DNA from: an uncultured Latescibacterota bacterium
GTDB lineage: Bacteria; Latescibacterota; UBA2968
DNA: 64,000 nucleotides
NCBI GenBank assembly: GCA_958295785.1
Contig: OY282377.1
Location: forward strand, 1,192,394 to 1,256,393
Reading direction: 5' to 3'
Shown here: piece after piece, positions 61,984 through 64,000 of the stretch
How positions within the stretch are numbered: position 1 is the first letter of the stretch
Layout of the letters: the number at the start of each line of letters is the position of its first letter
Notes under the pieces: generated by a model
Database searches by the model: none
The model's input: only the letters and a program-made list of their open reading frames with translations
What the model was told of the DNA's origin: nothing
Program-made: the position numbers and the translations under genes

Positions 61984-64000
61984 ATGGGTCTTGCAGTGAA
62001 AGCACCGTGGCATAAAATTTCGTGGGATGCGTTTGTGCAAAAGGAACTGCCCGAGTTGCTGGCAGATAAGGTGTCGCTGGCGGATTATCGCGTGGTGGCG
62101 AAGGATGAATACACCTGCGAATTGCATCTCGCGGCTCAAGGTGGTGCAACGGTGGTGTACAAAAATATCCCGCAGCCCGACGACTATGGGCGGTTTAAGG
62201 TGGATGGGTTTTTTCGCACAGTGGTTCCCGTGCCGACAGAGGTGGATTTGGCGCGGGCTGAAATTCGGTGCGTGGGCGAGCAATTGCGCGATTGTCTCGC
62301 ACAGCGGTTGGACGGGATGCCCGAGATGCTCGAAGACAGCATTCAAACGTGGATGCCGTTGGGCGATTGGATGCACGCATTTTTTACCCGCGAACCCACG
62401 TCTCAGTTTTTGCAGGCGACCAATTGGCAGGATATGCACGTTCACTTGCGGCGGGTGACGTTGATCCCCATTCTCGATCAAGCCGAGGGGTTGGCAAATG
62501 GGTATCATCCGTCTCACGACGGGCGCGTTTGCCCCTATTGCACGCCCGAAGGCCCAAATATCGCGCGGATTTTGGAGGTGGCGCAGGGGGCGACCATCCG
62601 CGATGGCAAGTTGGTGATCGAAGACGACGCGCCCGAAAAGCGCGTGGGCATTGGCGCGTCAGTCACGCCGTTTATGGAACACAATGACACCAATCGCGCT
62701 TTGATGGGGGTGAACATGACGCGCCAGTGGATCGGCGCGCCAGGGCCCGATATGCCGCGCGATGAGCAAGGCGCGTGGTGTGCCTATCACGCGCAATACG
62801 ATGGCAAAGCCCTGGAATCCGAACCCGCGCTGGTGCAAACCGGGTGCGAACCGCGCGATCCGCATTTTTGGACGGGCTACAATTTGCTCACCGCGTTTAT
62901 GGCGTGGAACGGGGACGCGCACGAAGACGCGCTTGTGATAAGCGAATCCGCGGCCAATCGGATGATGCTGCCCAACCGCGTTGCGCCGGGCGACAAGCTC
63001 AGCAATCGGCACGGGTTTAAGGGCGTGGTGTCGCGCATTGTGCCCGATGATGCGATGCCCACCATGTCGGATGGCACGCCTGTGGAACTCATTATGAGCG
63101 TGTGCGGGTTGCCCTCGCGCCTCAATTTCGGGCAGGTGCGCGAAGCCGTGATGGGGCGCGTTGCCAAGGCCAAGGGCGAGCCGGTGATCGTCCCCATCTT
63201 TGCCGCGCCAAAAGACGATGCGATCCGCGCCGAGTTGAAGCGATACGGCCTGTCGGAAGACGGCATGGACGCGCTGCGTCTCAATGGCGAACCCCTGTTG
63301 CGCCGCACGACAGTGGGATGGGTGTATTGGGGACGCACATCTCATTTGGCTGCGGATAAAATTCACATGGGAGTCGCGCCCGAGCAGCGCGGTCAAGAAG
63401 TGGGCGAAGCGGAGTTTTTGGCCCTGCGAGAAGCCGGTGCTTTTGGGGTGATCGGCGATTTGTTCAATACGTGCTCGGCCATGCGAGACGATGCCGATAC
63501 TTTGGCAGAGCGCGTGGCCGCAGGGCCTGTTGTCCCCGTTGCGCCATCTCCCGCGTTTGAAGATTTGGTCAGGCGTTTGGCGCGAGGAGGCGTGGAGGTC
63601 GCGTTGGGCAAATACGGTGCCGAGTGTTCATTGAAACGCGGCGGCGATATCGCGCTTGCGCGTGCGGTGCCGCATCCGTGGTTGTCCGGGCATTCCCTGA
63701 CCCATGTGGGCAAAGACGCGCCCCGAGTTTTGCAAGAGGCCAATGACCGCTTGGCGGAGATGATCGCAAAGGGCGCGCCCGAGGTGCTGATCCAGCGCGG
63801 GCACAAAACCCTGTGCGAGCGCGTTGGCGATTTTTGCGATTGGCCGCAGTCGCGCTTTCACGCGAATGTGTTATTCAGCGGGCGTTCGGTGGCCGTGCCG
63901 GGCGCGAAATTGCGATACGATCAAGTCGGCATTCCCGAAGACATGGCGTGGACCTTGTTTGGCCCTTTTGCCGCGCGTGCGGTGGGGGTCGAAGAAGTCG
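61984..64000 (+). CDS. Compact fused beta-beta' RNA polymerase (partial, runs off the right edge)
   Basis: 672 codons from ATG 61984 (AGGAGG eight bases upstream) with no stop before the edge. Beta-like motifs in order: [16 protein letters not shown] (about 69-84), SQFLQATN (140-147), [14 protein letters not shown] (180-193), [10 protein letters not shown] (224-233), NRALMGVNM (237-245), LVISE after WNGDAHEDA (308-321, with Glu314-Asp315 as in E. coli E813-D814), [15 protein letters not shown] (335-349, Lys338 and Lys346 as K1065 and K1073), [14 protein letters not shown], and [19 protein letters not shown] (443-461). Beta' motifs follow in the same chain: [18 protein letters not shown] (586-603), then [20 protein letters not shown] (631-650) and [12 protein letters not shown]. 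The flap, wall and zinc ribbon are missing. The catalytic DFDGD-type motif should lie just beyond 64000. Confidence 0.9.

Follow-up and report, generated by a model that had tools for sequence, protein, structure and literature searches.

A chromosomal single-chain RNA polymerase lacking the beta flap, encoded beside an ECF sigma factor, suggests a second, simplified transcription system in an uncultured Latescibacterota bacterium

Background

In the published structures, bacterial RNA polymerase has two docks for its sigma factor, one on the beta-prime coiled coil and one at the tip of the beta flap: in ECF complexes region 2 sits on the former, region 4 enfolds the flap-tip helix, and the linker, which is the least conserved region of ECF sigmas, enters the cleft and exits via the RNA exit channel (cited parts of PMC6411747 and PMC6372665). 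The window described here, a stretch of 64,000 nucleotides from the genome of an uncultured Latescibacterota bacterium (GCA_958295785.1, contig OY282377.1, positions 1,192,394 to 1,256,393), ends within a polymerase gene from which, according to the initial annotation, the flap and wall of beta have been cleanly deleted. The locus thus raises the question whether the deletion is real and, if so, what kind of enzyme is left and which sigma factor might serve it.

Results

The gene runs past the edge of the window. In the genome its reading frame occupies C1:1254377-1257463 and encodes 1028 amino acids with no stop, in which a reduced beta and a reduced beta-prime are joined in one chain. Since the DxDxD motif lies in the portion of beta-prime beyond the edge, the fusion could not be seen from the window alone. 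The relevant features, all on the + strand, are the following.

61093..61118, + strand: ECF-type promoter of the sigma-polymerase operon, TGAACC-N14-GGTGTC (own-genome match C1:1253486, equal to window 61093)
61290..61886, + strand: partner ECF sigma, 198 aa, regions 2 and 4, linker PGWMID (Pfam: Sigma70_r2 E 1.9e-18, Sigma70_r4_2 E 1e-14)
61984..64000 and past the edge, + strand: compact RNA polymerase in one chain, covering beta and the first portion of beta-prime (reading frame, Pfam)
62920..62946, + strand: left flank, the active-site segment of beta, HEDALVISE (residues 313-321; D814 position kept in 31/33 homologues)
62947..62985, + strand: deletion junction, 13 residues (322-334) replacing flap and wall (homologue spacing, profile alignment)
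62986..63027, + strand: right flank, 14 residues (335-348), with lysines at the K1065 and K1073 positions (K/R in 31/33; K in 32/33)
63721..63840, + strand: beta-prime coiled-coil hairpin, about residues 580-619, dock of sigma region 2 (host beta-prime alignment from 273 on; model)

The whole protein matches Rpb2_6 (2e-39), Rpb1_2 (1.8e-11) and Rpb2_3 (4e-6) in Pfam, and is closer to bacterial than to archaeal or eukaryotic enzymes: the best phmmer matches among solved structures are bacterial beta subunits (E 1e-45; best archaeal 3.5e-32), and hhalign against host proteins of the same phylum gives E 3e-59 for beta and 3e-35 for beta-prime. The host genome, which belongs to the same genus as G008, also carries a normal rpoB (frame of 1270 aa) and rpoC (1368 aa) elsewhere; no alpha gene lies beside the compact polymerase. 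About 10-20 kb 3' of it, a row of DNA methylases, an ATPase and a helicase was noticed by eye (L005 2837-10102), possibly a restriction or defence cluster.

A scan of genome_contigs found the family at 40 loci, of which 33 hold full-length homologues, the remaining 7 being fragments or broken frames left out of the counts. The "about a dozen" residues first noted between HEDALVISE and the right flank proved to be exactly 13, and the spacing from the serine of the SxS motif to GDK is the same 13 residues in 32 of the 33 homologues (24 in the other one). In all 14 canonical rpoB genes of the same phylum 258-262 residues separate the end of the active-site segment from GDKM. The profile alignment to the host protein places the gap at about beta 788-1038. 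By phmmer, residue 329 onward pairs with E. coli beta 1056 onward, and the match to B. subtilis beta breaks off after the active-site segment, at 780, to continue at 915. Of the 240 or so E. coli residues between the motifs, about 100 belong to a lineage-specific insert, so that the universal loss is nearer to the 135 or so residues given by B. subtilis. In the AlphaFold model of a homologue 79% identical to the window protein (L042; 33-row alignment; mean pLDDT 87.7, pTM 0.86) a short loop takes the place of the flap, from the end of a helix at 327 to the start of a strand at 339, with pLDDT of about 86. No extra segment long enough to be a flap moved elsewhere in the chain was found in the 33 homologues. 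The dock of sigma region 4, the flap tip, is absent.

The loss, although real, is not an isolated one as first supposed. The main beta match begins at about host 456-472, preceded by a weak N-terminal piece (146-173) only, which means that the beta lobe is missing as well; the chain is also shortened at two other places between beta blocks. In the profile alignment the beta-prime match starts at host 245. Neither the N-terminal clamp nor the zinc module of beta-prime has a sequence match in the protein, most of the clamp is lost and the rudder is shortened or gone. The coiled coil is kept, the model showing helices at 583-597 and 602-620, and past it the match takes in the barrel, an F-loop-like segment and the bridge helix as far as host beta-prime 779. 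About 45 residues are left after the bridge helix, and nothing in the chain corresponds to the trigger loop motif at host rpoC 908. Compared with the canonical five-subunit core, defined by flap, lobe, clamp, trigger loop and separate beta and beta-prime, the compact polymerase falls outside.

A C-terminal motif, PG-V-FARAA--GE-DPLTD--SRLFVG, was at first taken for a shortened trigger loop, a reading since abandoned. Its sole hhalign match is the C-terminus of beta-prime (host 1301-1324), with a score of 16.9 that shuffled sequences also reach (95% at 18.5, maximum 26.5). For the C-terminal half, the fold comparison extends from 16 to 1359 of E. coli beta-prime, a range marking the first and last aligned residues only, with about 460 residues aligned, Z of about 29 and rmsd of 4.4-5 in most rows; its end at about 1359 favours the beta-prime C-terminus over a trigger loop.

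Catalytic and substrate-contact positions are named here by E. coli numbering (D814, K1065, K1073, R678). The second and third aspartates of DxDxD are present in 33/33 homologues and the first in 31/33 (Y or N in 2); the K1065 position holds K in 27 and R in 4 of 33, with A or T in the other 2, whereas K1073 is K, and R678 is kept, in 32/33 each. With both double-psi barrels, DxDxD and the beta lysines and arginines in place, the protein is, judging from these residues, a two-barrel polymerase derived from bacterial beta and beta-prime. Fold comparison gives a similar picture: for the model, Foldseek ranks beta chains from bacteria and plastids first (E about 1e-24 to 1e-23), and VIA comparison of the beta part (the first ~546 residues) yields Z of about 29-30 and rmsd mostly of 2.2-2.8 over 440-520 residues, with 29-34% identity in bacterial beta rows and 19-26% in archaeal and eukaryotic ones. 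Viral relatives found by structure search are distant, mostly giant-virus subunits.

The gene immediately upstream, which the initial annotation passed over, encodes an ECF sigma factor of about 200 residues with regions 2 and 4 only (TIGR02937, 110 bits against a cut-off of 42.9). By tblastn the same sigma precedes the polymerase in 39 of the 40 loci; at the exception, L072, the polymerase itself shows no match before residue 324. Among the 39, the sigma and polymerase genes overlap by 1-4 nt at 15 loci; where there is a gap, 97 nt in the window, it measures 1-3 nt at 7 loci, 17-26 nt at 3, 73-324 nt at 10 and 1.3-2.0 kb at 4. These last four are genus members (L040, L041, L042, L068) with an inserted gene, which by eye looks ABC-exporter-like in L040 (2626-4667) and L041 (8073-10000), and TPR-like in L042 (8721-10000) and L068.

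When a profile of 20 partner sigmas was scored against 64 genomes of the same phylum, full-length partners obtained 237-306 bits and two cut matches 171 and 147, the next ECF scoring 124. The subfamily occurs in 24 of these genomes and the polymerase in 22, with 21 in common; among the mismatches, the polymerase lies at a contig start in G036, an N-terminal piece of it sits beside the sigma at a contig edge in G010 and G022, and a fragment is on another contig in G027. On these scores the partner sigmas are a subfamily set apart from other ECFs, occurring with the polymerase. Their linker carries the motif P-x-W-[MLI]-[ILVM]-[DE] in 33 of 39 cases and in none of the 6 other ECFs checked. The canonical core-binding motif DLxQEVFLRVW is kept, and would also suit the host enzyme.

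A pattern of TGAAC (once CGAAC), 13-18 bases and [TC]GTC precedes the sigma start in 36 of 38 operons across phyla, the window included; two loci whose upstream sequence is cut (L068, L060) were not counted, and the misses are L054 and L057. Shuffled upstream sequences contain the pattern in 5%. Its commonest form is TGAAC-N15-GG[TC]GTC. In the window the promoter stands 198 nt from the start codon, against about 30-45 in most others, owing to an insertion. The insertion, of about 160 nt (61119-61289), carries the palindromic GGGGCATCGCCCCTAC at 61184, whose complement recurs at 17976 and 19922. No enrichment of the pattern was seen elsewhere: the own genome holds 2 exact matches (5 in the reversed control) and 3 looser ones (6 in the control), and 8 further genomes hold 33 against 44. 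Other matches in the 11 genus and 8 further genomes mostly resemble coding sequence by eye. Autoregulation is thus the only target visible.

The 40 loci are labelled, by their submitters, as Latescibacterota, Poribacteria, Hydrogenedentota, Chloroflexota, Armatimonadota, Gemmatimonadota, Phycisphaerales and other bins. Genomes with the polymerase number 22/64 in the phylum of the window, 17/251 in Armatimonadota, 4/301 in Chloroflexota and 11/84 in Poribacteria; the 11 genomes reached through loci have one copy each, and within the genus of the window 10 of 11 genomes have the gene and the 11th a fragment. In a tree of 34 rows, with long branches and unsure deep joins, phylum labels change 9 times (shuffled mean 16.9) and Poribacteria form one clade (100/99). 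The alignment sets A3 and A5 are chosen diverse subsets, of 19 and 20 rows. The gene is under purifying selection along the whole chain, dN/dS being 0.155-0.174 between the window and four genus mates and 0.138-0.180 among the mates.

Viral_contigs, phage and plasmid records contained distant or canonical matches only, and no member of the family. When the flanking reading frames of 26 loci were clustered, no third gene common to most lineages emerged, the best cluster covering 5 lineages at scattered distances, and no integrase or phage gene was found to be common to the neighbourhoods.

The searches also matched other polymerases. Viral contig IMGVR_UViG_3300049846_001789 encodes a distant one of 1506 aa with beta and beta-prime matches (L036, frame from 5643), and 12 Clostridioides plasmid records gave matches (e.g. 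NZ_CP149712.1, hit H35), those listed mostly bearing annotated rpoB/rpoC-like genes. Within the same phylum, other single-chain beta-beta-prime polymerases occur at L139 (G031:C268), L140 (G057:C540) and L141 (G023:C65), the complete case having 1999 aa; in L139 the match to the beta profile continues across the flap region, which makes this a different and larger fusion.

Discussion

The reading that we prefer, with a probability of about 0.58, is that of a two-part enzyme: a minimal, sigma-dependent chromosomal polymerase, made by fusing and trimming beta and beta-prime, which would work with the upstream ECF sigma, be autoregulated and have been kept vertically. Region 2 of the sigma would dock on the retained coiled coil and melt the -10 element, while region 4 would recognise the -35 element with no flap to anchor it. 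The P-x-W-M-I-D linker, unusually conserved, may run through the space left open by flap and wall and have taken over contacts which these once made; for filling that space it is a better candidate than the leftover 13-residue loop. That this linker is conserved among the partners, although the ECF linker is described as the least conserved region (cited part of PMC6411747), was counted in favour of this reading. The operon would be positively autoregulated through its own promoter. Loss of the flap would open the exit path, so that hairpin-dependent pausing and termination should be ignored, and loss of the trigger loop would be expected to lower accuracy and leave no proofreading, by analogy with what is reported for YonO.

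Several observations were counted against it: the changed coiled-coil contacts, a sigma motif suited to the host enzyme, the lack of any visible regulon beyond the operon, and the substitutions at the first catalytic aspartate (Y/N in 2/33) and at K1065 (A/T in 2/33). The positions of E. coli R275, E295 and A302, known beta-prime contacts for sigma, are occupied mostly by A, A and R in family members, the columns being read with a one-column offset corrected by eye. Together with the unchanged core motif of the sigma, they would fit a private interface that has been rewired, or else a sigma mainly serving the host core. This latter possibility, in which the sigma lets the host enzyme switch the operon on and the compact polymerase is active with another factor, or none, on another template, seems to us unlikely on balance. 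It would agree with a promoter of normal ECF form and spacing, with the usual core-binding motif, with the loss of the presumed contacts from the coiled coil and with the fact that only the host enzyme offers region 4 a flap-tip anchor; however, none of the 64 genomes has the sigma subfamily without the polymerase, contig-end cases apart, the linker motif was seen in this subfamily only, and the coiled coil has been kept while other parts of the clamp were lost.

ECF sigmas are often encoded with an anti-sigma in two frequently overlapping, autoregulated genes; the pair described here has the same layout, the second gene being a polymerase. It may be asked whether the polymerase-like protein mainly regulates its sigma, holding it through the coiled coil from the place of an anti-sigma. 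Gene position and overlap, which agree with the usual layout of such pairs, speak for this, but catalytic residues preserved across phyla and a dN/dS of 0.14-0.18 over the whole chain do not, nor would sequestration need a bridge helix and two barrels; we regard it as improbable. That chromosomes have captured a polymerase of phage or mobile-element origin appears more improbable still. Patchiness within phyla (22/64) and the fact that single-chain two-barrel polymerases are typical of phages (cited parts of PMC10770324 and PMC5467207) would be accounted for, whereas the absence of the family from viral_contigs, phages and plasmids, its presence in 10 of 11 genus genomes, the grouping of the tree by phylum (9 changes against 16.9) and neighbourhoods with no common integrase or phage gene argue the other way. 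The chance of an assembly error or a decaying gene is negligible: the assemblies of a few homologues hold a broken gene (G009; L065, by one stop), but nothing of the kind was found for the window gene, the junction is the same in 32 of 33 full-length homologues, frames are intact and selection is purifying. Independent assemblies of the genus mates exclude a misassembled gap, and the initial view that flap and wall were lost precisely, between preserved flanks and with no general decay, holds.

Canonical beta and beta-prime are clear homologues with the same catalytic residues, the compact polymerase differing in being one chain without flap, lobe, most of the clamp, rudder, trigger loop or an adjoining alpha gene. 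Among reduced enzymes, YonO of phage SPbeta likewise is a single chain with no flap and no trigger loop, so that flap loss is not new as such; it is an active, processive DNA-dependent RNA polymerase, with relatives reported also in firmicute and cyanobacterial chromosomes, and shares with cellular enzymes double-psi-barrel homology alone, the cited part of the paper describing no sigma partner (PMC5467207). Kinship with YonO was considered and dropped: beyond the DxDGD stretch there is no detectable sequence relation (BLASTP E 1.4, hhalign probability 0.1). Given this, and the clear homology to bacterial beta and beta-prime, the compact family would be a separate and more recent reduction.

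The nearest in layout, going by the cited part of PMC6211774, is the yeast killer-plasmid (VLE) enzyme K2ORF6p/K2ORF7p, also a beta-beta-prime fusion that has lost most of the clamp; unlike the compact polymerase it keeps almost all beta regions and parts of the trigger loop, needs a second subunit and resides on a yeast cytoplasmic plasmid, with no sigma. Phage P23-45 and crAss-like polymerases are reduced two-barrel enzymes too, the P23-45 virion enzyme being without a clamp (cited part of PMC10770324); they are phage-borne and highly diverged, for the crAss-like ones partly on the cited part of PMC7481178, whereas the compact family sits in chromosomes and has stayed close to bacterial beta. 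The reduced phiKZ non-virion polymerase has a dedicated sigma-like protein, gp68, but its subunits are split, its flap is present though poorly ordered, it is phage-borne and gp68 is only weakly sigma-like (cited part of PMC8287921), in contrast to the plain ECF sigma of the compact system. The open-licence literature searched, subscription papers being outside its scope, describes the sigma-polymerase pair nowhere; as far as that literature shows, a chromosomal, sigma-paired, flapless beta-beta-prime fusion across several phyla is new.

Conclusions

A stripped-down, one-protein, flapless polymerase, present in addition to the normal one and encoded with a promoter-reading partner, suggests that these cells have a second and simpler system of transcription. 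That several phyla possess such a system, with a dedicated sigma and a polymerase devoid of flap and trigger loop, the rewired coiled coil insulating it from the host and the linker replacing flap and wall, is a tentative proposal, which we hold at somewhat less than even odds. If true, a chromosomal enzyme that keeps the coiled-coil dock, lacks the flap dock and is inherited together with a two-domain sigma would reveal what the flap is needed for; it would provide a natural test of RNA exit, pausing and termination without flap and trigger loop; and, at about 1028 and 198 amino acids, it would be a very small sigma-dependent transcription pair of bacterial type, of use for studies of mechanism and as an insulated tool.
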